Positions 6,282-23,600 of a DNA stretch of 64,000 nucleotides are shown here, piece after piece (the stretch's first letter is position 1; every line of letters starts with the position of its first letter). Where the stretch lies: contig NZ_FNZV01000001.1 of NCBI RefSeq assembly GCF_900109555.1, forward strand, positions 1 through 64,000. Direction: 5' to 3'. The notes beneath the pieces were generated by a model that did no database searches, was not told the origin of the DNA, and saw only the letters and a list, made by a program, of their open reading frames with translations. The translations under genes were made by a program, and so were the position numbers. Source of the DNA: Pacificibacter marinus (lineage in GTDB: Bacteria > Pseudomonadota > Alphaproteobacteria > Rhodobacterales > Rhodobacteraceae).

Positions 6282-9200
6282 CTACTTATCAATACGGGTC
6301 CTGAATTCAAACGTCGCGGCTGATCCTGGCAAGACCTCGCCATCGCATTCCCATCTTATACCACCCACATAACCAGGCGTCACTATATCAGGAAGCGCGA
6401 GGGTGCATTCGGTCCCGCTGCCGATTGTGAGCGTTTGTGTAATTCCGCCATCAAGGCTCGTGTAGGGTGGCGTGTGGTCGTGGATATGGACTCCACGCAC
6501 GGAATCAATCCCGGTATTCGTGATGCGGATCCTGTACAGAAGAATATCGGCAGGCCCCCCGCTGTTGGAATGAGATTCGCCGGTCATCCGGGTCAGGTTT
6601 TCGACAGTTTTCTCGACGATGATGCCGCCGCCACTGCCTATGGTCACGCGGTCGGTATTGTCAGCCTGCAACGTAACACTGACATCATCAAACGCGGTTA
6701 TTGCAGTAAGCCGATATGTGATGGCGGCACCGTCAGGCAATCCAGAGCCCGTGGCAACGCGGGACAGGATGCAGATACGGTCGCCGACTTCCACGGCAAA
6801 GGGCGCGGAAATCACGGCTCCGAGGGTGCCGTCGCAATCCTCGTCATGAAACAATGCAACACTGGCTGCGCCCTCTGATGGAAGGCTCAAGTCTTCGACG
6901 GAAAACGCGACGCTGCCCTTGCTGCCTGCAACGTAATCGTGAAACAGAAGGGCGATCTGCCCCGATTGCGCATAGGCGACAGAATTTTCGGAAAGCCGCG
7001 GCACGGGAACCAGGCCGAAGGCAAGGTTGCTCACGATGCTATCGGCTGCAAGGTCCAGCAGTATCCCCCCCCCATCATTTGGCGGGGATGATACGATCGC
7101 GGGAGAGCCTGAAATGCTTTTGGATATCGCCAGCATGCCGTCCGGCACCACCACCCTTGCCAAGGCAGGCCCCTCGAAACCAGGTGGAAGATCTACTGAC
7201 CAATTGCCGAGGTCATCCGTAGAAGTCACGGCAATGGTCTGCCCGTCAGGTGTCTCGATCCTGACCGATACCGCTGCCAAGCCCGCCTCGCCACCGTTGA
7301 GCGCACCGTCATGGGCGCTGCCGTTCCCGGTGCCCGTGTCGGCAATGACCTGGCCCGAAAGCCTTGGGCGGGGTGGCCCAGACAGGGCGACGGCGTGGTC
7401 CTCGACCTCTCCGTCCGGAGCGTTTTCGATGGGGTCCAGGCCGGGTTGCGTGGACCAGCGGAACCGCGCGAAGCTGGCCCCCGGCCGAGCGTTGAGGGGG
7501 ACAGCCACCGAAAGCGAAATCACCCCAGCCCCGCTTGACGTCATATCACTTGCGATTTGTTCGCCCGCCCCGAACGTGCCGTCCCCGTTCCAATCGATCC
7601 AGGCCTGCAAATATCCGGCCTCTCCCCCTGTTTCGCTCACGCTGACCTCGATGGTCTGGGTCGTGCCGACTGGCAAGGGTGGCAGAACAACGCCATCTTC
7701 GTCGTCGATCCCGCTTTCGTCATCCCCAGTCGCCGTCGGGTTTGCCTGCGGCCCTGACTCCATATCTGGCACGGCAGAGCCCATGAACAACGTCTCATAG
7801 ATCAGATGGTAAGGGCTGCCGTAATTCGCTGTTGCGGTGCCATCGGGTGCGCGACCTGAAATCGGGCAATCAGCGTAGTCGGTGCAGATCGACGTCACCC
7901 CCGAAATCGACGCCTCCGCCTCTCCGATACCGACGCCGAAAAAACCGAGGAGAGGATCAACGGTAAGGTCCAGGCTCGGAGAGATTGCATCCACCAACAG
8001 ACCGCCGACCAGGTCACCCACCAAAGGTTCGATCGTCGTGTCGATCAGCGGACCAACCAGGTTTCCCAGGCTGTCTTCCACGTCCACGTCGAGGTTTTCC
8101 GCAAGGGTTCCGATGAGATCACTGAACGATGATGCGCCATCCCCGGTTGACTGCCTTTGCGGATAGGGTGGCGAGAAGAACAACGTCTCGCTTATTTGAG
8201 GCGCGCTCTGCGCAAAGGATTTCACCCGGATGCCCGCGTTTTCTTGAACCAGACCACCAAACAAGGAGACGTCGAGTTGTGCAATGGTCGCAAATTCGAC
8301 ATCTGACTGCGCGATCGGCCGATTTCGATTGAAGAATATGGCGTCGTCGATACCGCCCAGAAACAGGTCGATTGCACTGGGCGCAAGAATGACGCTGGCC
8401 GTCTCCGTCACGGGGTCGGCCGAAAGGATCGTGCCGTCCACGCGGCCGAATTCAAAATAGAGATCCACGTCCCCCAAGGTGACATCCGTCGCTATCAGCC
8501 CCCCAAGAAGGGCCCCGAGAGCGCCATCCAACACAGCGGTATCCAACCCGATATCGGCCAGATCTACGGAAAGCTTGGCCCGCACGGTCGAGGTATGGAA
8601 CTGCGTTCCAGCACCCCCGCATTCGAAATGGGGCGGCTCGACAACCTGCAGCAGTATCTCTGCTCCGCCAATGCCAAATTGTTGTAGAATGGCGTTATTC
8701 AGTGCGATGGGCTGTGTCGTGGTCACAACGTTTTCATAGTTGTAAAGCTGGATCGCCCCACCGATCAGATCCAGCGCATTCAACTCCAGCGTCGCCAAGG
8801 CCCCTTGGGGCAAGCCGATCGTGATTAGGTCAGCCAGATTGATGGTCTGATTCAGCTCGGCTATCGGCACGCTCAGCGCATTCAAGGCGTTCACCAGCGC
8901 GGTGTCACCATCAGCCTCTGCAACAGCGGCTGAGGCTTGAACGAGGTCCAGAAGGGTCAGGTCAACATTGGCGATCTGCCCCGGATCAGAAACCGTGACA
9001 TCCTGCCCATTTTCACCAAGAAGTCCTAAAAGATCAATGTTGGCACCGGCCATCGCATTCCAATCCAGAACGCTCAGGCTGACATCGGTCCCAAGCAATC
9101 CCGAAAGGATGGGGCCAAGAAGCTCTGCCTCGCTGGATTCAACGCTGGCCATTCGGGGGCCTGCGAACACGCAGGCAGCTCCGCAAGAGTCTTGGGCCTG

Positions 9201-9323
9201 TGCCAAATTAGCAGCCGATAGTGAGAAAATCGCCAACAAAAAAACGACCACCTTCGTTCGAACCACCATGTAATGACGCAGCAAACTTTGAGCAGAGCAA
9301 CAACGTGAAATTGAGAGATTCAT
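6282..9323 (-). CDS. large secreted protein: TadG-like region, GEVED, SdrD_B-like and DUF11-like domains
   Basis: A protein of 1013 residues from the first ATG; Met19 (9269) gives a more classical signal peptide (VVVFLLAIFSLSAANLAQAQ) and may be the true start, though neither start has a strong ribosome binding site. Residues about 60-250 resemble the leucine- and aspartate-rich central region of TadG-like proteins (GTDVSLSVLDWNAMAGANID, then EILLQVVEPPHFECGG). Around 560-670 is a GEVED domain (AWIDWNGDGTFGAGEQI; DGEVEDHAVAL). Around 675-760 is an SdrD_B/Cna_B-like module (LSGQVIADTGTGNG... GNWSVDLPPG). The last about 130 residues are DUF11-like (IVEKTVENL, RIRITNTGIDSVRGVHIHD). No membrane anchor or sorting signal is seen at the end. 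Likely exported, surface-associated; function unknown. Confidence 0.8.
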   Translation of the reverse strand: MNLSISRCCSAQSLLRHYMVVRTKVVVFLLAIFSLSAANLAQAQDSCGAACVFAGPRMASVESSEAELLGPILSGLLGTDVSLSVLDWNAMAGANIDLLGLLGENGQDVTVSDPGQIANVDLTLLDLVQASAAVAEADGDTALVNALNALSVPIAELNQTINLADLITIGLPQGALATLELNALDLIGGAIQLYNYENVVTTTQPIALNNAILQQFGIGGAEILLQVVEPPHFECGGAGTQFHTSTVRAKLSVDLADIGLDTAVLDGALGALLGGLIATDVTLGDVDLYFEFGRVDGTILSADPVTETASVILAPSAIDLFLGGIDDAIFFNRNRPIAQSDVEFATIAQLDVSLFGGLVQENAGIRVKSFAQSAPQISETLFFSPPYPQRQSTGDGASSFSDLIGTLAENLDVDVEDSLGNLVGPLIDTTIEPLVGDLVGGLLVDAISPSLDLTVDPLLGFFGVGIGEAEASISGVTSICTDYADCPISGRAPDGTATANYGSPYHLIYETLFMGSAVPDMESGPQANPTATGDDESGIDDEDGVVLPPLPVGTTQTIEVSVSETGGEAGYLQAWIDWNGDGTFGAGEQIASDMTSSGAGVISLSVAVPLNARPGASFARFRWSTQPGLDPIENAPDGEVEDHAVALSGPPRPRLSGQVIADTGTGNGSAHDGALNGGEAGLAAVSVRIETPDGQTIAVTSTDDLGNWSVDLPPGFEGPALARVVVPDGMLAISKSISGSPAIVSSPPNDGGGILLDLAADSIVSNLAFGLVPVPRLSENSVAYAQSGQIALLFHDYVAGSKGSVAFSVEDLSLPSEGAASVALFHDEDCDGTLGAVISAPFAVEVGDRICILSRVATGSGLPDGAAITYRLTAITAFDDVSVTLQADNTDRVTIGSGGGIIVEKTVENLTRMTGESHSNSGGPADILLYRIRITNTGIDSVRGVHIHDHTPPYTSLDGGITQTLTIGSGTECTLALPDIVTPGYVGGIRWECDGEVLPGSAATFEFRTRIDK

Positions 9324-9712: not shown

Positions 9713-9793
9713 ATGCGTAATTGGGCTACCCTCTGTTCTGAGGTCGAGCTCCCGATAAGATCACGGGATGACTGTGAACAAGGGAGAAAGAAG

Positions 9794-10828
9794 ATGGAAT
9801 ATTTTGCCGGAATAGACGTATCGCTTCGATCCTGTGCGCTTTGCATTGTGGATGGCAAGGGGAAGGTGCTTCTTGAACGAGAGCTACCATGCGAGATCAG
9901 CGATATCACTAATTGCCTTGCTGAGTTTGCACATCCGATTGAACGGGTCGGCTTTGAAGCAGGTACTCTGAGCCAGCACCTATACTTCGGTTTGACAACA
10001 GAAGGCTTCGATGTGGCCTGCATGGAGGCGCGACAGGTCAATGCGGCGCTGTCAGCAATGCGGAACAAAACAAACAAGAATGATGCCCGTGGGATTGCCC
10101 AAGTGCTACGGACGGGCTGGTTCAGTCCAGTACATATGAAGAGCCGAAAGGCACATGGTGTGCGTGCCTTGCTCAGCACACGCAAGGCGTTGCTGAAGAA
10201 AACGATGGATTTGGCAAACGAAGTGCGTGGACTGCTGAAGATCTTCGGCATTCGTCTGCCCATGACCGTCAAGTATGGCAGTTTTGATGGTGTCGTCCGT
10301 CCGCTGATTGAGATGGATGATGTTTTGGCGCATGCCTTGGTGCCACTATTGGATGCACGCGTGGTTTTGTATCAGCACTTTCTGGAACTGGATCGGCGCG
10401 TCAAACGCGCAGCCAGCCATGACGAAGTTTGCATGCGGTTGATGACCGTTCCAGGCGTCGGGCCGATCGCATCGCTGACCTTCAAAGCAGCTGTAGACGA
10501 TCCGACGCGCTTCAAACGATCACGGACTGTAGGTGCGCATTTTGGGCTGACGCCGCGACGATATCAGTCGGGTGAGCACGACAATCCCGGTCGTATATCA
10601 AAGGCAGGTGACCGAGATGTCCGTGCAACTTTGTATGCCGCTGCCAACGCATTTCTGATGCGAACGATGGCCGGGTCCCAGATCAAATCTTGGGGCATGC
10701 GACTGATGCGCACCAAAGGACGACGCCGTGCAGTTGTTGCAGTTGCACGCAAACTCGCCGTCTTGCTCCACAGGATGTGGGTTGATGGCACTGAATTCCG
10801 TCAGGATCCGGTGGGAGGCAAGGCATGA
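9794..10828 (+). CDS. IS110-family transposase (DEDD recombinase)
   Basis: 344 residues. The N-terminal RuvC-like DEDD domain begins with FAGIDVSLRSCALCIVDG (first Asp at residue 7), continues with GFEAGTLSQHLYF (Glu) and KTNKNDARGIAQ (the paired Asp region). The C-terminal Transposase_20 part has LMTVPGVGPIASLTF and GLTPRRYQSGE, with the family serine expected in the following segment. The ATG at 9794 is preceded by AGGGAGAAAG; an upstream ATG at 9713 exists at the very edge of the element but lacks such a site. It looks intact, so the element may still be active. Confidence 0.92.
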   Translation: MEYFAGIDVSLRSCALCIVDGKGKVLLERELPCEISDITNCLAEFAHPIERVGFEAGTLSQHLYFGLTTEGFDVACMEARQVNAALSAMRNKTNKNDARGIAQVLRTGWFSPVHMKSRKAHGVRALLSTRKALLKKTMDLANEVRGLLKIFGIRLPMTVKYGSFDGVVRPLIEMDDVLAHALVPLLDARVVLYQHFLELDRRVKRAASHDEVCMRLMTVPGVGPIASLTFKAAVDDPTRFKRSRTVGAHFGLTPRRYQSGEHDNPGRISKAGDRDVRATLYAAANAFLMRTMAGSQIKSWGMRLMRTKGRRRAVVAVARKLAVLLHRMWVDGTEFRQDPVGGKA

Positions 10829-11114: not shown

Positions 11115-11430
11115 GAAGCCGACGTTTAACAATTGGTTTGATACTGCGGCGCAGCTTTCGTTTTACGGCCTTTCTTGCGGTTGCAACATCTTGTGGGCTT
11201 GAAGCCCCTGTATGTGGAAAAGCGCACCTCTGCGCTGCCCAACAATGACCGACATTCGTTTGTGCGGCTTCTAAGCAACAGTGCTATCCACTGAGGTCAC
11301 GTGAGCGAGCAAACCAGTTGCTTACAGCAAACGAAAGCTGTCTCCCTAGGTTATTCCAATTCGAAGGGCGATCATCTTGCTTGCTCTTGCGGAATTCCCA
11401 CTAAGCACTTGGCAAAAAGAGTTTATAAGC
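11115..11430. other. right remainder of repeat copy D and upstream region of the ubiquitin-autotransporter gene
   Basis: Positions 11115-11130 complete the interrupted repeat. The rest (300 bases) has no supported gene. Hairpin-prone segments occur (GGGCTTGAAGCCC at 11199-11211; AAAAGCGCACCTCTGCGCTG near 11218). The promoter of the downstream gene must be in this stretch or within the insertion sequence; no clear hexamer pair is visible. The site before the start codon (AAAAAGAG) is weak. Confidence 0.45.
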
Positions 11431-12603
11431 ATGCGGCATCTACTAATATCGGCGTTCATTTTCGCTCTGGCAAGTTCCGCAACACCAGTGATTGCGATGC
11501 AGATTTTTGTCAAAATGCCTACGGAGCAGACCATTACTCTCGACGTCGAAGCCAATGATACAGTCGAAAATGTCAAATCCAAAGTTCAAGAGAAACAGGG
11601 CATTCCACCGGAACAGCAACGCTTGATTTTTGCCGGTACGCAACTTCAAGTCGGTCGGACGCTTTCCGATTACAACATTGGGAAGGAATCCACGCTTGAT
11701 CTATTCTATGTACAGAGTGGAGCTGTCGATGCCGGCCCCGTTGCCGCCATTAGCGCCAACGGCCAGACGCGAGCAATGCAAACCGGTACAAGTAATAACT
11801 CCCGAAGCCGTTTAGGCGAAAGCTCTAGCAATATCGTGTCCCGGAGCCAGCTGTTTTTTTCGACCCAAAACCTGTCGAACAATTCGTTGGAGAGGCCTGA
11901 GTTGAACGTCTGGTTCTTGGCAGAGGGCCGACATTACAGCGGTGGCTACGATGGCTATTCTGCGGATGTGGTTTTCGGTGCGGATAAGTTGTTTTCCAAC
12001 AATTTCTTGGCCGGCTTAATGCTTGGCTATGGCCACGTCGACATCAGCGACGCAACTGGCAGCGTTGGCGCGAACTCTCCTGCCGTTGGTGCGTACTTTG
12101 CTACCAAGTTCGCTGGGGACTTAATACTGGATGGCTACTTCAGCTACGCACGGCCTGAGTACAAGCTTGATGGTGCCACCTTAAAATCTGATCGCATTTC
12201 TGCCTCACTTGCACTGAGCGGCGATCACACAATAGGCACATTGAACATCCGTCCTTTTACATCTGTCAGTGGATATAGCGAAAGCCAACCGTCCTACATA
12301 GGAGGCGGTGGAGCGGTTGCCGCAAATGACATCTATGAATATAAAGCGTCATTGGGTGCAAGGTTCGAGGTGACCAGCGCCTTAGGCTTCACGGGCATGA
12401 CATCTTATATGAGCGCCGCAGTTGACTATGGTCGCTCAAAGTCGACATCAACGGGAACCGAGGACTTTGCCGCTCCTCGCCTTGGCTTCGGTGTGAGCGG
12501 CCCTGTCGGCGAAGGTTATCTCAGTATTGATCTTGATGGCGGTAAGGTGTCTTCGGAAACTTACGATTTGGGTCTTCGAGCTAACTACAGTTTTAACTTC
12601 TAG
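11431..12603 (+). CDS. signal peptide-ubiquitin-autotransporter beta-barrel fusion
   Basis: 390 residues from the ATG at 11431; an upstream in-frame start at 11377 would add 18 residues and spoil the signal peptide. Residues 1-22 are a Sec signal peptide ([19 protein letters not shown]). Residues 23-98 (DNA 11497-11724) align without gaps to human ubiquitin: 52 of 76 identical, 51 of the first 69, including [13 protein letters not shown] and [15 protein letters not shown]. Predicted cleavage after Ala22 would make ubiquitin Met1 the new N-terminus. Retained lysines: 6, 27, 29, 33, 63; Lys11 is Gln and Lys48 is Thr. Of the Leu8/Ile44/Val70 patch only Ile44 remains. The C-terminal LRLRGG is replaced (YVQSGA) and runs on into a Ser/Asn-rich linker (99-157). 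Residues 158-390 form an autotransporter-type barrel of alternating strands ending in Phe (LRANYSFNF). Inferred role: outer-membrane display or secretion of a ubiquitin-like passenger that cannot be conjugated through its tail. Confidence 0.93.
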
Positions 12604-12985
12604 GATGCAGCCAATTGCTGTGCGCGCAATCGCCGTGACAGCAGTCGCGACATATTCGTTACAGCGGCAGGAGGGCTACTGTTCGAAAATATGTCTTTCG
12701 GCTCATTCGCATCAAATTTCTGGTTGAGCATCAGTGGGCCGCCAGTGACGTGACCGCGTGCAAATTACCAACTTCCACACTTTGGCATTCATTCAACCTG
12801 TCGCCGCGCTGATTGCAAATTATTCATCAGTAAACTCTGGCTCGACGAAAGAAGTCCAAGCCAATCTTAAGTGCCTCGGGAGGGGCCGCTTTGACTGTTT
12901 ATAGTTGGGAATCCTGCGTCATAGCTAAGGTCCGGTTCCCGCCCGACGTGTCGGCCTACAAGAGTCCACCGCCGTTTACGGACAT
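12604..12985. other. intergenic region with repeat copy E
   Basis: No gene is supported between the autotransporter stop and the methyltransferase stop (convergent genes). A copy of the dispersed repeat starts at 12922: TAGCTAAGGTCCGGTTCCC, then GCCCGACGTGT, and a decayed right half GCCGTTTACGGAC reaching 12983. I see no clear terminator for either gene. Confidence 0.5.
12922..12983. repeat. dispersed intergenic repeat, copy E
   Basis: The left half TAGCTAAGGTCCGGTTCCC differs by one base from copy C at 5952. The right half is diverged. Confidence 0.55.
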
Positions 12986-17085: not shown

Positions 17086-20000
17086 TTAAAGGTCATCAAT
17101 AGAAGAGAACATCCTTATTGCTAGTGCCACCCTGACCTCATTGTGAACGGTATCAAGATCGGCATTAGCATCCGCAGAAAACCCATCCTCTATCGTTTTG
17201 AGTTCCTCGTAGGACCCAACACGGGAAGTGTTGTTCGTCTCCCTTCTGAGCCATGCGTGATGCCTATTGAAATCTCCTGCCTTGACCATCTGTTGCAGCA
17301 TTTCGATAATAGGGCTTGGAGGTATCCCTGTCTCAAGCTCCATTGCTTTCACAATTTGGCTCAGAAGGCTGCACAAAAAGCCGATGTCCGGCAGTATTCT
17401 GATAGAGAAACGCCGAGCTCGGTTCGCGTGTTTTTGAGCAGAGGTTTGTTGAAGGACGGGTTGCTCATGTTGGCGCACAAAGGCTAAGAGCCAAGTTTGA
17501 ATCTCAACTAGCGACTTGCCGCCACACCACATTTCGACCAATGACTTCAAAGCCCCTAATATAATCTGCGAGCCTGCATCCTTGTCCGCCTGATTTGTGA
17601 AAGCGCGACCAAATACGGTATTTAACGATGTTTCTCGTACGAGCAGCGTTAGGTCTGCCGAAGATGTTACACACACATCTAGGAGCCAAGAAACCCAGTC
17701 GCTGGTTTCGGCTTTGTCGATTGGTGCAGAACCCATTTGGCTGACAATACGAGCGATCAGCTCAGGCGGAACACCATTCCGAACAGCTAGAGTTTGTTGC
17801 CAAGGAAGCACAGGAGGGTCCTGTAAAGTTTCTGTCGCTGCGGTGAGTGCTATTCGCCGAGACTGCAGCCATGCATCAGCAGAGGTCCCCTCTCGCGCTT
17901 TTCGCACAAAGTATCCGAAAGACCTTCCTGCGATGTCATCAAAACCCGATCGACCATCGTTCGTGACCGACGAAAGGCGCCGTATCATTGCCTGGGCTTT
18001 GGGATCAGAACTCGCTGTTGCTTCGATAGTATCCAAGAGTAGTTCTACTGGGTCGATAATGTCCTGGCATGCATCGTTATCGGAGAACACAATATCCAAA
18101 GGGTTTTGATCCTGCCCGAAGGCAAGTGCAGAAGTATCGACTCGGATAGGGTTGGCAGGAACAACGATAGCGAGCCCCGTTGCAGAATATGCAGCACGGC
18201 CAGCACGGCCCATTGCATTCAAAATCTCATGGGGAAGTAGATCTTTTCTTGGGTTCCCGCCCGGATCATCTTGAACGCTTCGATCGGTGCCTGCTAGAAC
18301 TACTACGTCGCACGGCAAATTGAGGCCTTGAGCGATTGTTGAAGTGGCAGCAATTACCTCCAACCCATGCGTTGGCCCTGACGTAGGTCGACCTGTGCGA
18401 AAGACGGTCTCCATCAACCTTCGCTCCAAAGGCATCAAGTCACCATGATGCACGCCCGCCCGCAATCCTGTAGGTTCATAGGCTGCATCTGAAGAGCCAA
18501 TGTCTTTTAGAATCGACTTTCTCATACTTTCTTGATCATCGGTTAAGGTGATGTCTGCGATGTCCAACTGTTCATTAATCGCATCAGCAATACTTCCACA
18601 TGCCGTAGCATCAGTGCAAAAAACGACTACCCGCTTGCCTTGCGCCGCGTAATCAGCGGCCACTTGTGCCGCAACGGCGTTTCTATTTGAGGTGTGACGC
18701 CCATTCGGCTTGCGCGTCAGGGCTGGAGTTGCCGCCGTTAGTCTACGCACTGCGAGTTTTTCTGGCCTATCTGGATGCCAGCCTGACAACAGTGAGAACA
18801 ACCCAAAGGGTTGAACTGGAATCGCATTCTGTTCCTTTTTCGTGGGTAATGTTGCAGTTTCTGCCGCCGAGCTTCTTACTTCGGCGTCGTCGTAAACCAC
18901 ACATGAACGTAACTGACGTGTCGGCTTCCAAGGATCATTGAAACAGTGGACTGTCTGCCCGGTGGTCGAGTGAAGCCAATTTTTAATTTCCTCTCCGTTT
19001 GCGACCATTGCGGAAAGCAGCAGTAAGTCCGCATTCCGTCGAAAGCTCATGAAACTCAATAGAGCCAACATTGCATCGATTGCGCGCGAGTTGATTTTAG
19101 GAGACGTCTTTGGGTCGTCTGCACTGATCAAGTGAAACTCATCAAAAACCAGTAAACCTACATTCTCAAAGAGCTCCGGGGCTGAACTCAGCAATGCAAG
19201 ACATCTCTCCGGGGTCATCACGGAGAGTTGGGGGAGGCGATCTCCAATTTCTTCCAGCAAAGTATCTTCGACGCTTTCTGGATCGATGTCTCCGACCTCA
19301 CCCGACAGGTCATACTCCACCTGATCCACAAGTGCATGGGTCGGCGCGAGGTAAACAACACTCTCATCAGCACACAATACAGCGGCAATTTTCAAGACTG
19401 ACAACGTGGTCTTTCCCGAACCAGTAGGTGTAGTCATCACCATAGAGGAACCACGGTCTAAGTATCCTGTCGCGACCGCGTGCAAGTGGTTGGTCCAAAG
19501 AAACGGACGCTTTTCAGCTTGAGGCAGCAACCATTCTCTCCAAGTGGTCGAGTTCGCCCCTACCGGAACGGGTGTACGAATGAGCATGGATTGCCTGACT
19601 CTTGGCAATAACCTTAACAAGAGAGTGGCAACATGATGTGGCCCAGCATATTGCTCGTGCATTAGGCCCGCGATTCCTTCCGGCAGTTCATTATCGCGTG
19701 GTTCTGCGAGCGAAATAACCTGAACCAACTTTTGTTCCAAGTCTTCCACAATCTCTGACTTGCCGAGAGCTTCCACAGCGAGACCTTGCACGACTAGAGC
19801 ACATTCACGGAATAAGAGGTTAGTTGCGTGCTGCCTGCTGTCGTCCGCTGCAATCGACTCCCCCTCCAAGGCTCGTTCAGAAATCTTCGAGAGTTCGCCC
19901 TTTGCGAGCTCGCGAATCGAGATTATCAACGCTCGCCTAATTGCATGATCTTCACCTTTTGCGATGAGCTTTGAAGCAGCCTCCGCAGCATCAGCCGCTC

Positions 20001-20373
20001 GGTCCGCAATCAAGAACAGCAATGTGCTGGCAATGGTGGAAGAAACCGCATCGCTAGAAAGTAAAGTTGGCCCAACTGCTCGTCCGTTGGTTGCTCTGGC
20101 AATGAGCTGATGAGCGCTCGCGGCGACAAATGCTGCCGCTTGTGTCCGTGCTGGCTGCAAATCAAGAGCAACATAGGCTTCGAAGGTGGCCGCCAAACGT
20201 CGCACCTTATCAAGAAGAATGCTCCGCCGAACCTCGTCTTCCCCAAAAATTTCGACCCGTATTGTCGCAAGCTCAATGTGCGCTTCTGTTAGCACCTCAT
20301 CCAACATGTCGGCTTCAAGCCCTGGAAGATTTGGCGCTGTACGAATTAAACGTCGTGAGCTTTCGTCAAACAT
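17086..20373 (-). CDS. Ski2-like DEXH helicase of a Hachiman-like defence pair (HamB-like)
   Basis: 1095 residues from the ATG at 20373, which has GGAGG six bases before it; another ATG precedes it directly. Superfamily 2 motifs, numbered from this start: Walker A TPTGSGKTT at 315-323, motif Ia VYLAPTHALVDQ about 340-351, DEXH box DEFH at 411-414, motif III LLSAM about 453, a TSTIAQGLNLP segment at 677-687 and motif VI MGRAGRA at 721-727. The MGRAGR form points to Ski2-like helicases. About 300 residues before the helicase core are helical and unassigned, and about 300 after it are rich in helices. The gene overlaps the upstream nuclease-like gene by 8 bp. A helicase coupled to a PD-(D/E)XK-type protein is the layout of Hachiman (HamA-HamB), where the complex senses and degrades phage DNA. 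Assignment to Hachiman is inference. Confidence 0.82.
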   Translation of the reverse strand: MFDESSRRLIRTAPNLPGLEADMLDEVLTEAHIELATIRVEIFGEDEVRRSILLDKVRRLAATFEAYVALDLQPARTQAAAFVAASAHQLIARATNGRAVGPTLLSSDAVSSTIASTLLFLIADRAADAAEAASKLIAKGEDHAIRRALIISIRELAKGELSKISERALEGESIAADDSRQHATNLLFRECALVVQGLAVEALGKSEIVEDLEQKLVQVISLAEPRDNELPEGIAGLMHEQYAGPHHVATLLLRLLPRVRQSMLIRTPVPVGANSTTWREWLLPQAEKRPFLWTNHLHAVATGYLDRGSSMVMTTPTGSGKTTLSVLKIAAVLCADESVVYLAPTHALVDQVEYDLSGEVGDIDPESVEDTLLEEIGDRLPQLSVMTPERCLALLSSAPELFENVGLLVFDEFHLISADDPKTSPKINSRAIDAMLALLSFMSFRRNADLLLLSAMVANGEEIKNWLHSTTGQTVHCFNDPWKPTRQLRSCVVYDDAEVRSSAAETATLPTKKEQNAIPVQPFGLFSLLSGWHPDRPEKLAVRRLTAATPALTRKPNGRHTSNRNAVAAQVAADYAAQGKRVVVFCTDATACGSIADAINEQLDIADITLTDDQESMRKSILKDIGSSDAAYEPTGLRAGVHHGDLMPLERRLMETVFRTGRPTSGPTHGLEVIAATSTIAQGLNLPCDVVVLAGTDRSVQDDPGGNPRKDLLPHEILNAMGRAGRAAYSATGLAIVVPANPIRVDTSALAFGQDQNPLDIVFSDNDACQDIIDPVELLLDTIEATASSDPKAQAMIRRLSSVTNDGRSGFDDIAGRSFGYFVRKAREGTSADAWLQSRRIALTAATETLQDPPVLPWQQTLAVRNGVPPELIARIVSQMGSAPIDKAETSDWVSWLLDVCVTSSADLTLLVRETSLNTVFGRAFTNQADKDAGSQIILGALKSLVEMWCGGKSLVEIQTWLLAFVRQHEQPVLQQTSAQKHANRARRFSIRILPDIGFLCSLLSQIVKAMELETGIPPSPIIEMLQQMVKAGDFNRHHAWLRRETNNTSRVGSYEELKTIEDGFSADANADLDTVHNEVRVALAIRMFSSIDDL

Positions 20374-21268
20374 CATAACCCTCCGTTGCCGAACCGATGT
20401 CTCGCAACTTCTCAATCACTTCTTGAGCAAGCTGGTGAAGCCCATTTCTAACATCGTCGAAAGGCATAACCCCGCCAATCCTACTTGATAGTGCCCCCAA
20501 TGCTACTTCATCGAAGCCAGCAAGGAGATGGGCAAAGTCAGCCGTTCCGCGTTGATTTTCACCTGTGGCTATCGACACACGGAACTGCCGAATTTTCTCC
20601 CAGAATATCGCATCGACCGCATCCTCCAGCTCTTCACCTGAAAGACCAGGGACAGCCTTTAAAAGCGTTGTAAGTGCAGACGATACCTCATCTTCACGTT
20701 CTCCGGCGCATATTGATGTGATTTCGTCCCAGACTCCTCCCTTTTTGATCACCAACCTACGTGGGTCCTGTGACGCCTTATCTTCACACAGAACCACTTT
20801 CTGCACTCGTTTCTGTGCGTCATCAAATTCAATAATGAACCCATCAAAGCCTTTATCAGCCTGCCGGACATGTGGCGGCGTAAGTATGTCGTTAGGGTTA
20901 GCTAATCGAGCAACGACCCAGGACAAGTATTGAAAGAGATGTCCATCCCTGTGCCAAATCGACACTTTAATGCGGTCAGTTGCTTTTTTTCGTTCATCCT
21001 CATCGCCACTTTGGGACAACTCGACGTCGGCGGGCTTTGGGGCCGTGAGCTTTGTAATAGCGTTCGGCAAGACTCTTTCTGTTGAAGAACGCGTCCTCGT
21101 TTCCAAAGTTTCTATAATGCGTTCGGCGTTTTGTTCTTGTCGTAGATACAGGTATGCCAAAATCGTAACGAGCTGGTCTCTCTTGGCCGGATCGATTGAC
21201 CACTCGGTTAGGTTACACTCAATTGAAGTGAGTTGAGATTGGGCTACTGGCAAAAATACGCACTCCAA
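20366..21268 (-). CDS. PD-(D/E)XK-like nuclease partner of the helicase (HamA-like)
   Basis: About 300 residues. The frame opens with TTG at 21268; no ATG occurs near and no good ribosome binding site is seen, so the start is uncertain. A PD-(D/E)XK nuclease signature can be read: Asp142 (DKGFDGFII) and Glu162-x-Lys164 (VVLCEDKAS), 20 residues apart, flanked by hydrophobic strands. This is the pattern of the DUF1837/HamA group as I know it. The C-terminal half (residues 180-300) is helical. It is the first gene of a two-gene operon with the Ski2-like helicase, overlapping by 8 bp. Alternative: another nuclease-helicase defence module of the same general kind. Confidence 0.68.
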   Translation of the reverse strand: MECVFLPVAQSQLTSIECNLTEWSIDPAKRDQLVTILAYLYLRQEQNAERIIETLETRTRSSTERVLPNAITKLTAPKPADVELSQSGDEDERKKATDRIKVSIWHRDGHLFQYLSWVVARLANPNDILTPPHVRQADKGFDGFIIEFDDAQKRVQKVVLCEDKASQDPRRLVIKKGGVWDEITSICAGEREDEVSSALTTLLKAVPGLSGEELEDAVDAIFWEKIRQFRVSIATGENQRGTADFAHLLAGFDEVALGALSSRIGGVMPFDDVRNGLHQLAQEVIEKLRDIGSATEGYDV

Positions 21269-21466: not shown

Positions 21467-22999
21467 ATTCTGTTGAAAAACACCGTGTTGCTGGCGCAGA
21501 AAGTATTGCTTTAGACACAGCGCGAGCGCCTTTTCTATCAGGCTTTGCGCGTTTGCTGCGGTGCAGGAAAGATCTTGGCTAGTTTGCGGAGGTTTTGGAC
21601 GGTTGCAGCGAGTAAAAATTCGTCATTTGCGCCGTTCGGCCCACGCAATCGCAATCGTCCCAATCCGAGGATGCGTTTGAGGTGGGCAAAAAGCATCTCG
21701 ACCTTCTTTCTGAGCCGCATCGAGACCACATATTGCTTGGTTTTGGCGATATCGCGGGCGACCTGACGGGCGTCTTCGTCAGGTTCGCGGTTGATCGTTC
21801 GAATGCTCTGGTCCGGACAGCATTTTGCTTTTGAAGGGCAATCTTGACAGGTCAGCTTCAGAGCACGATATCGCATTGTACCTTTGCCCGATGGGCCACG
21901 ATTTGGATCAGAATAATTGCGCCGGAACTGCTTGAGGTCGTGCCCTTCTGGGCAAATGTATCGATCATTTTCTTGATCCCATTCAAAGTCATCACGTGAC
22001 CAAACGCCTTCTGCTTTTTTGGCCTGGTCGATGACTGGGATATGGGGTGCGATGCCACGCTTGACCAACCAACCGAGCATTGGACCTGTTCCATAGGCGG
22101 TGTCTGCGATCAACCGTTCTGGATCAATGTCGTGCCGGTCTTTGATCCGATCTAGCATGGTGCGCACTGACCCAACTTCGGCCTGTCGGATCGATCTGGA
22201 GCCTTCGACATCAACGATCACGCTGTGGTCGGTGTCGATCAGATAATTGGTTGAATAGCTAAAGAACGCAGGCCCTTTGCGCGCTGCAGTCCACTGGCTG
22301 GCGGGATCAGAATGCGATGTGAACTTAGGCTTCACCTCTGATGCGGCACCAAAGGCAGCATCGTCCAAGACGTCCAAATACTCCTTCACAGCTCGTGGCG
22401 CATCGCTGGGATTGATGGCGCTTATGTCCCAATCTTCCTTCGGTGTGGAGTTCTGTTTATTCGCGTCCGCTTCAATCAAACTGGCGTCGGCAGCAAGACG
22501 TTGGCCGCTGACCAAGCCATCCGCGATGCACCGTGCAACAGTCTTTTCGAATAGATGCCGCAGCAGCGCGCTCTCACGAAAACGGCCATGGCGGTTCTTG
22601 GAAAATGTAGAATGGTTCGGCACCGGATCAGATAAATCGAGGCGACAGAACCAACGATAGGCGAGGTTCAGATGCACCTCTTCGCACAACCGGCGCTCTG
22701 ATCTGATACCGAAGCAATAGCCAACCAGCAGCATCCGGATCAGCAGTTCCGGATCAATCGACGGGCGACCTGTATGGCTGTAAAACTCAGCTAGGTATTG
22801 TCGAATGTCATCCAGATCGACGAACCGATCAATCGACCGCAGCAGATGATCTTGCGGGACATGCTCTTCCAGAGAAAACTCATAAAACAGTGCCGCCTGT
22901 GCTTCCTGCTTCGGTCCCATCATCGCCAAATCTCCCGCTACCGTAGACAAATTGAATCAGTCACAGGTCCTCAAATCAAGAAGAGTTTTTCAACAGAAT
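21467..22999 (-). mobile_element. complete IS1182-family insertion sequence
   Basis: Bounded by a perfect 15-bp inverted repeat, ATTCTGTTGAAAAAC at 21467-21481 and its complement at 22985-22999. The element is about 1533 bp and holds one full-length transposase. I found no clear target duplication in the flanks, so the true ends may lie a base or two outwards. It separates the nuclease-helicase operon from the integrase remnant and tRNA-Leu. Confidence 0.82.
21538..22923 (-). CDS. IS1182-family transposase
   Basis: 461 residues from the ATG at 22923, preceded by GGGAGATTTGGCG; the frame extends to a TTG at 22950. The N-terminal DUF772 domain is present (HLLRSIDRFVDL, then RPSIDPELLIRMLLVGYCFG and SERRLCEEVHLNLAYRWF). 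The DDE-type domain has ADASLIEADA (first Asp), LIADTAYGTGPML (second Asp) and a C-terminal glutamate region (RLRKKVEMLFAHLKRILGL). A CPEGHDL and CQDCPSKAKCC zinc-like cysteine cluster lies between them, as is common in this family. No frameshift; the enzyme may be active. Confidence 0.92.
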   Translation of the reverse strand: MMGPKQEAQAALFYEFSLEEHVPQDHLLRSIDRFVDLDDIRQYLAEFYSHTGRPSIDPELLIRMLLVGYCFGIRSERRLCEEVHLNLAYRWFCRLDLSDPVPNHSTFSKNRHGRFRESALLRHLFEKTVARCIADGLVSGQRLAADASLIEADANKQNSTPKEDWDISAINPSDAPRAVKEYLDVLDDAAFGAASEVKPKFTSHSDPASQWTAARKGPAFFSYSTNYLIDTDHSVIVDVEGSRSIRQAEVGSVRTMLDRIKDRHDIDPERLIADTAYGTGPMLGWLVKRGIAPHIPVIDQAKKAEGVWSRDDFEWDQENDRYICPEGHDLKQFRRNYSDPNRGPSGKGTMRYRALKLTCQDCPSKAKCCPDQSIRTINREPDEDARQVARDIAKTKQYVVSMRLRKKVEMLFAHLKRILGLGRLRLRGPNGANDEFLLAATVQNLRKLAKIFPAPQQTRKA

Positions 23000-23247: not shown

Positions 23248-23270
23248 AAGTGCCAAACAAAGTGCCAAAC
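23247..23270 (+). repeat. 12-bp tandem direct repeat next to the integrase fragment
   Basis: AAAGTGCCAAAC occurs twice in tandem at 23247-23258 and 23259-23270, between the integrase remnant and tRNA-Leu. Such repeats can be arm-binding sites of a tyrosine integrase; this is a guess from position. Confidence 0.4.
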
Positions 23271-23330
23271 AGCTACATTTTGGCAGTTCATCAACGTTTA
23301 AGCGTCTGGGAAAGTTCAATAAAATCAAGG

Positions 23331-23414
23331 TGGTGCGGGTGAAGGGACTCGAACCCCCACGCCATAGGCGCCAGAACCTAAATCTGGTGCGTCTACCAAT
23401 TCCGCCACACCCGC
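23331..23414 (-). tRNA. tRNA-Leu (anticodon TAG)
   Basis: Read on the minus strand, the gene begins GCGGGTGTGGCGGAATTGG (acceptor stem and D arm), has the anticodon stem-loop CCAGA-TTTAGGT-TCTGG with anticodon TAG, a long variable arm (CGCC TAT GGCG), the T arm GGGGGTTCGAGTCCC and the closing acceptor strand CACCCGC with discriminator A and an encoded CCA (23331-23333). The class II long variable arm and the anticodon agree on leucine. Its 3' end faces the integrase fragment, so it is a likely integration target. Confidence 0.96.
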
Positions 23415-23600
23415 ATTGCGTGCCTCATAGCAAAGGCAAATGACCAGCGCCAGACGTAAAATGCATCAAATATGTTTGAAAGCGCGATTTTGTGAAAAAT
23501 CCTCCAAAACCACACACGCATAGCCCATGGCGGTGCGAGGATCGTTGTGAAATGCGCGCAGTGATTGGCAGAAGTTGGAAAAGATTACAGCGTGAAACCA

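Follow-up and report, generated by a model that had tools for sequence, protein, structure and literature searches.

Bacteroides fragilis is one of few bacteria with a eukaryotic-like ubiquitin according to a 2017 paper, which describes a secreted product (BfUbb) that is without the terminal Gly and antagonises some B. fragilis strains (PMC5705921). That paper and a second one on BfUbb and its gene ubb (PMC3352274, PMC5705921) present a eukaryotic-type ubiquitin behind a bacterial signal peptide that is cut before Met1, without the conjugating glycine and found in some strains only. The ubiquitin described in this work, whose signal peptide and cut are predicted, would resemble BfUbb in these points, whereas BfUbb is stand-alone, diffusible and of shown antagonism, and the present ubiquitin is fused to a barrel.

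Type Va autotransporters (PF03797) are the other described system close to it, since a putative signal peptide, an N-terminal passenger, a linker and a C-terminal barrel ending in Phe make up the protein reported here, which differs in that its passenger is a ubiquitin and very small (76 residues). Type Va passengers are usually larger beta-helices or enzymes. As for the competition in which BfUbb takes part, its target is reportedly a peptidyl-prolyl isomerase, a result said to come from Jiang et al. in Nat Microbiol in 2023.

Here we report a gene that joins ubiquitin and autotransporter in a stretch of 64,000 nucleotides (the window) of Pacificibacter marinus (assembly GCF_900109555.1, contig NZ_FNZV01000001.1). 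Secreted bacterial ubiquitin and autotransporters are each already known. No description of a ubiquitin-autotransporter, or of the variety of anchors on which exported ubiquitin occurs, appeared among the matches listed in open-licence PMC, a search whose scope leaves most subscription journals outside.

A ubiquitin-autotransporter gene in a single open frame

The gene (11431-12603, + strand) is a single open frame with its ATG at 11431 and its stop at 12603, encoding 390 aa. Pfam search of the product returned PF00240 (ubiquitin) at residues 25-92 (79.3 bits against a cut-off of 25.4, E 1.8e-22) and PF03797 (Autotransporter) at residues 167-347 (57.4 bits against a cut-off of 26, E 2.5e-15), both over cut-off in one frame; the PF03797 score of a homologue on the Pseudorhodobacter MAG contig L004 was 65.4 bits. 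The first-pass annotation of this DNA, made from its letters, had read a ubiquitin with 51 of 69 residues as in the human protein, followed in the same frame by an autotransporter barrel ending in Phe. Both statements were borne out, the former by the PF00240 match and by a gapless comparison with human ubiquitin (51/69 first residues, 52/76 overall), and the latter by the PF03797 match and a C-terminus that reads ...ANYSFNF. Because L004 shows the same domain order, there is very little chance that the join conceals an assembly error or a frameshift between the two parts, which the same annotation had named as a possible flaw. We regard the ubiquitin-autotransporter architecture of the gene as virtually certain. 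An assembly artefact or chance frame was also considered and ruled out, the same order being found at full length in L004 and in two further relatives, L101 and L102.

The precursor begins with a putative signal peptide of 22 aa (11431..11496, +), called by eye from a hydrophobic stretch followed by a V-I-A end directly ahead of ubiquitin Met1. Ala stands immediately before ubiquitin residue 1 in 13/13 precursors examined (L082 not listed), as needed for a signal peptidase cut. The ubiquitin domain (residues 23-98; 11497..11724, +), assigned from PF00240 and comparison with human ubiquitin, ends in YVQSGA in place of LRLRGG and is followed by a linker (residues 99-153; 11725..11889, +), which is partly alignable with relatives bearing other passengers and presumably traverses the barrel. 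The beta-barrel domain (11890..12600, +), with Phe as its final residue, was assigned from PF03797, the homologue L031 and a crude scan with one fixed threshold, which gave 21 amphipathic segments; in 12 of these the length is at least 3 positions. NCBIfam search of the window protein matched no autotransporter model, and PDB sequences searched with the barrel profile yielded no autotransporter, the one match being OprF (E 0.013). Among the best 60 of the 361 PDB matches of the window protein, the names are nearly all ubiquitin, ubiquitin fusions and engineered ubiquitins.

The G+C content is 45% in the ubiquitin part and 53% in the barrel and in the window, and a scan for promoters and terminators gave nothing above chance. 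The window genome has a size of 3.87 Mb in 43 contigs and a completeness of 99.96%; its one PF00240 match is the gene 11431-12603, on a 674-kb contig.

Distribution of the ubiquitin-barrel fusion

The nearest named relative of the window gene comes from an uncultured Pseudorhodobacter (L004), with a protein 77% identical over 390 aa. In blastn comparison the two share a cassette of 82% DNA identity (11259..12626, +), and the similarity is restricted to it, the remainder of the 3.6-kb contig being unmatched. When genomes of the order were queried with the protein of L004, 35/321 gave a match, and the match includes ubiquitin in three, the window genome and those of L101 and L102, both full-length relatives with the window's domain order. 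Other Rhodobacterales, where the first-pass annotation had proposed to look for this domain order, have thus provided it in L004, L101 and L102.

The ubiquitin-barrel fusion is patchily distributed. PF00240 was detected in 1/20 genomes of the window's genus, in 3/394 of a family sample and in 2/398 of a phylum sample, the second of these (L077) barely over cut-off. The three of the family sample are the window genome, L002, in which the barrel reading frame is broken as it stands, and L003, which is truncated by the contig end. The class sample gave matches in 6/385 genomes, five of them over cut-off (L024 fell below it and was dropped), and these comprise barrel fusions in the window genome, L020, L021 and L023, together with ubiquitin alone in L022. 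PF00240 is present in 4/25 genomes of the family f41, and the same four carry the L020-type barrel; in the family of L021 it is present in 1/2 genomes, that of L021 itself. The IMG/VR collection contributed L081 and L082 (97% alike), both with PF00240 and PF03797, and L083, a ubiquitin-barrel gene related to L002. The fusion set used below has 14 rows, the window included, and covers several kinds of barrel. That ubiquitin is the passenger of a type V secretion system, as the first-pass annotation had supposed, is supported by these sequences, and the arrangement is recurrent.

Ubiquitin residues and selection

Compared with eukaryotic and viral ubiquitin, the bacterial copies have a conserved core and an identity of 52/76 residues in the window and 69/76 in L004, but differ in being exported and fused and in having lost LRLRGG in all fusions but L004. 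We take the four-residue I44 face (L8, I44, H68, V70) to be the recognition face of ubiquitin, and likewise presume the roles of the other residues discussed, including K11, K48 and LRLRGG, as well as the list of 14 core positions. Lost from the window ubiquitin are the C-terminal Gly-Gly tail (LRLRGG changed to YVQSGA), the lysines K11 and K48 and all but one of the I44-face residues (L8P, H68D, V70F). The L004 ubiquitin (91% identical to human) retains L8, I44, H68, V70, K48 and K63, and its intact LRLRGG tail leads directly into linker and barrel. Over the whole fusion set, LRLRGG is kept in 1/14 (L004) and lost in 13/14, the end of L026 reading LRLGGG; the I44 face is intact in 5/14, its form in the window being PIDF; and 14/14 have K63, 9/14 K48. 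All 14 positions of the hydrophobic core are aliphatic in every one of the 34 non-human rows, fusions included, and in the window 12 of them are identical to human. The surplus of identity at core over other positions is significant in some rows, among them L023 (p 0.001), whereas the window row falls short of significance (p 0.145). Since LRLRGG is lost in 13/14 fusions and the core is kept in all, use of the fused ubiquitin as a conjugated tag appears unlikely. The search of the window genome for the E2 family (PF00179) gave 0/1 matches, with a control search equally silent.

Selection was compared between the ubiquitin and the rest of the protein. For the window against L004, omega is 0.43 in ubiquitin and 0.23 in the rest. 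Polarised with human ubiquitin as outgroup, 20 ubiquitin changes are specific to the window and 3 to L004 (p 0.0005), while changes in linker and barrel number 13 to 8 or 8 to 9 depending on the outgroup, and the contrast between the two parts has p 0.083 or 0.013 by outgroup. The faster change of the window ubiquitin also fits loosened constraint. Within the f41 genus g433, comparison of L020 with L025 gave an omega of 0.062 in ubiquitin and 0.081 in the remainder of the protein at a synonymous distance near 0.9, and between either of these and L026 the ubiquitin is 82-86% conserved and the rest 57-59%. Ubiquitin is therefore under strong purifying selection in f41 (L020, L025, L026); L023, which also belongs to g433, does not fit, its ubiquitin being 53-57% and its rest 55-65% identical to its sisters. 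The contrasts in omega and conservation indicate that one lineage keeps the ubiquitin sequence itself and that others have remade its surface on a kept core. The L023 ubiquitin has 39/76 residues as in human, against 65 and 68/76 in L020 and L025, and all three genes lie at the same chromosomal site.

Barrel families, a probable passenger exchange and the number of origins

The window barrel matched 34/325 genomes in a search of the family. The nearest barrels without ubiquitin are L028 (43%) and L029 (38%) in that search and L103 (40%, measured against L004); identity of the three to the barrel of the window or of L004 is 37-44%. Other N-terminal domains precede the barrels of L029 and L103, and the frame of L028 opens only shortly ahead of the linker. 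Taken more widely, the small-passenger barrels of Rhodobacteraceae (L028-L037, L103) have barrel and linker homologous to those of the window protein at 27-43% identity, and differ in that the intact ones examined bear other short N-terminal domains, several of them with Cys. Because related barrels carry small non-ubiquitin passengers, ubiquitin looks like an exchanged passenger, and the simplest reading would be a swap on a display system already in place, in which ubiquitin replaced a different small passenger or was replaced by one.

The N-termini of L029, L030, L031 and L103 are small Cys-bearing domains on the window's barrel family, and Pfam scan of those of L029-L031 gave no named family; these small-passenger autotransporters may bear other captured domains. 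PF03797 is weak in L029 (27.7 bits) and in L031, where the match covers profile positions 5-255 of 255 with a score barely above cut-off (26.2 bits), and it has no match in L030.

In the barrel tree, window/L004, L101/L102 and L028/L029/L103 group together (95/94), and L083/L002/L003 form a separate supported group (98/96). A single clade of the Rhodobacteraceae fusions had p-AU 0.042 in a 16-row tree and p-AU 0.113 in the same test after addition of L101, L102 and L103, so that with the added rows one origin within Rhodobacteraceae is not rejected.

To compare barrels across the class, 31 of them were searched against each other, and the E-values given here apply within this set, which is small. 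Barrels of the window and L004 scored 221 and 237 bits against the ubiquitin-free L028, and at most 82 bits against ubiquitin barrels outside their own group. L081/L082 scored 82-86 bits against the ubiquitin-free L045 and, as query, at most 57 bits against the other ubiquitin barrel groups, with weak similarity to the window barrel (22%, E 2e-7) and to the f41 barrels (25-30%). The barrels of L020, L023 and L025 had no match to window-group barrels in this comparison, and that of L026 matched one of them, L102, at E 0.001. The L021 barrel had no match at 1e-3 among the 31; it also has no PF03797 match and is recognised by TIGR01414 (47.3 bits against a cut-off of 16), and in the ubiquitin tree L021 groups with L022 and Paludibacteraceae (99/99, with the bootstrap not fully settled). 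As the 31-barrel set contained no close ubiquitin-free barrel for f41 or L021, the independence of these two is argued from the missing barrel similarity and, for L021, from its placement in the ubiquitin tree. Missing barrel similarity and the ubiquitin tree together point to more than one fusion across the class, and ubiquitin-barrel fusions have thus probably had more than one origin, a plurality on which we put no number.

Other anchors and phage-borne exported ubiquitin

Exported ubiquitin is associated with at least three kinds of autotransporter barrel (those of the window, f41 and L021, with almost no mutual similarity), with T9SS tails, with IPTL-CTERM tails and with free secretion. 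The T9SS sorting tail (TIGR04183) was found in Fibrobacter (L006) and Algibacter (L015), the IPTL-CTERM tail in Paracidovorax (L005) and Acidovorax (L019), and exported ubiquitin alone in L012, L014 and L022. Paludibacteraceae have a large InlB-repeat/LRR protein with ubiquitin, identified by a scan that covered L016 out of L016-L018, and a protein of Bacilli (L013) has a C-terminal NPKTSD-hydrophobic-basic tail, recognised by eye, to which no library gave a name. The presence of ubiquitin on barrels in several lineages and on other anchors in other phyla and phage suggests repeated bacterial invention of extracellular ubiquitin. On plasmid pRUMAL01 of Ruminococcus albus (L099), a ubiquitin-family protein with a signal-like start is encoded in a row of small genes that also includes those for a dockerin protein and for one with a PI-phospholipase C domain.

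Three IMG/VR sequences (L078-L080) encode a signal-like peptide, ubiquitin and an IPTL-CTERM tail in one frame; the tail was scanned in L078, and that of L079 and L080 reads the same. In L078:2382-2768 the GTG at 2382 would start a protein of 128 aa, and terminase genes lie downstream of the ubiquitin gene in L078 and L079. These two sequences are 99.7% identical over 2.7 kb including the ubiquitin gene, with different terminase genes behind it. A further IMG/VR frame, L084:3944-4270, encodes a stand-alone ubiquitin with a signal-like N-terminus, an intact LRLRGG and 72/76 residues as in human.

A phage origin of the window gene was rejected after the window protein found no match in 50,697 phage records; IMG/VR nevertheless has the ubiquitin-barrel genes L081-L083 and the phage-borne L078-L080, and a phage route for the window gene is possible. 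Plasmid search with the window protein returned three records, in none of which a matched stretch extended over 80% of the query.

Proposed display and role of the ubiquitin and alternative explanations

We propose that the product of gene 11431-12603 would be a classical-type (type Va) autotransporter with a ubiquitin passenger, in which signal peptidase would cut directly before ubiquitin Met1 and the barrel would insert in the outer membrane, leaving the folded ubiquitin outside the cell, tethered through its C-terminus by a linker of about 55 residues. The ubiquitin may have been acquired by horizontal transfer and placed on a barrel family displaying other small domains; once displayed, it would be a tethered protein ligand, not a conjugated tag, and would most likely bind or harm other cells in the manner of BfUbb but at contact range. 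The domains, the open frame, the homologues, the loss of the tail with the core kept and the selection on the ubiquitin part are direct observations; export, barrel insertion, the outward passenger and the tether would follow from analogy with type Va proteins. From known type Va behaviour, it is very probable that the window ubiquitin is displayed on the cell surface, from which it could conceivably also be released by cleavage. An antagonistic or ligand role towards other bacteria is suggested tentatively, on the model of BfUbb, and may well prove wrong; the proposal as a whole, type Va display of a captured ubiquitin serving as ligand or antagonist, we would place a little short of an even bet.

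In a more general form, the chances seem to us balanced that bacteria and some of their phages have repeatedly captured ubiquitin as a module for display outside the cell, each lineage fixing it to whatever anchor it owns and using it as a non-tagging ligand or weapon. If so, this would be an extracellular use of ubiquitin unrelated to protein tagging. Natural copies range from the L004 type, in which the tail is complete, to strongly changed forms, and through this series the ubiquitin face that serves the bacterial function becomes testable.

A ubiquitin held by its C-terminus would also resemble a ubiquitinated membrane protein, and could thereby mimic one towards a host or predator: where a cell of a protist, alga or animal ingests the bacterium, it would engage that cell's ubiquitin-binding proteins and its enzymes for chain building or deubiquitination. 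The L004 copy, in which L8, I44, H68, V70, K48, K63 and LRLRGG precede the barrel, is what such mimicry would call for, as are the five fusions with an intact I44 face and the strong constraint on ubiquitin in L020-L025. However, ubiquitin enzymes sit inside eukaryotic cells, the tail is missing from 13/14 fusions and the window copy is without most of the I44 face, K11, K48 and tail, so that we consider mimicry unlikely. The first-pass suggestion of an action on host ubiquitin systems finds no support in the window copy, given these losses, and may apply to relatives like L004 that keep the residues concerned. It is doubtful, too, that ubiquitin is merely a structural tip, a small and very stable fold serving as cap or spacer in place of another small passenger with no ubiquitin-contact function. 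The kept core with a drifting outer face in the window and L023 (core excess significant in L023, not in the window) and the other small passengers on related barrels are consistent with such a tip, but the whole ubiquitin sequence is conserved as well as or better than the rest in L020, L025 and L026, and ubiquitin recurs with different anchors in several lineages, which would be unlikely if any stable fold sufficed.

The faster ubiquitin change on the window branch, the broken barrel frame of L002 and the presence of PF00240 in only 1/20 genomes of the genus could alternatively mark a recently gained gene that is drifting without selection in the window genome. We judge such decay improbable in view of the intact window frame, omega values below 1 for both the rest (0.23) and ubiquitin (0.43) and a core aliphatic at 14/14 positions. 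Surface ubiquitin might instead block or divert phage adsorption, a reading that would explain both the carriage by phages and the place near an integrase (1527-2549) and a defence-like helicase (17086-20415), and with which the exported ubiquitin near terminase genes in L078 and L079, the two scanned (L080 looks alike), would agree. No attachment repeats were found around the tRNA-Leu or the cassette and the window protein is unmatched in the phage records, which leaves this reading highly improbable. Display of a captured ubiquitin as tethered ligand or antagonist is the reading that we prefer.

Genomic surroundings

Upstream of the cassette lie an IS110-type transposase (9713..10828, +; PF02371, PF01548), which we treat as context outside the mechanism, and a GEVED-domain protein of 1013 aa (6282-9323, -; Pfam), which has a signal-like N-terminus and is probably secreted or on the surface. 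The integrase at the left end is of phage type and lies with a DUF2303 protein within 255-2549. Downstream of the cassette follow a methyltransferase, a pyridine nucleotide-disulphide oxidoreductase, an Rrf2 regulator and an M24 peptidase, then the helicase, a DEAD-box protein on the - strand that among PADLOC models resembles PDC-M23B (105 bits) and the Hachiman protein HamB (95 bits), and a DDE transposase (21538-22950). A 300-aa frame upstream of the helicase (20366-21268, -) has no match.

The tRNA-Leu region (about 23251-23500) shares no repeat of at least 14 bases with the remainder of the window, nor do the two cassette flanks share one of at least 10 bases. The same-genus genome G260 gave nine scattered matches to the 15-kb neighbourhood, so that no empty site is readable from it. 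Eight loci were compared, a set that excluded the window, L081, L101 and L102 and included L004, L021 and L003 on short stretches, and the ubiquitin-barrel gene is the only one common to the f41 loci and L002, L003, L021 or L004, so that neither a constant partner nor an immunity gene is apparent. Within f41, L020, L025 and L023 adjoin the same genes, and L026 lies elsewhere. In the window, the ubiquitin-barrel gene sits in a region rich in mobile genes.
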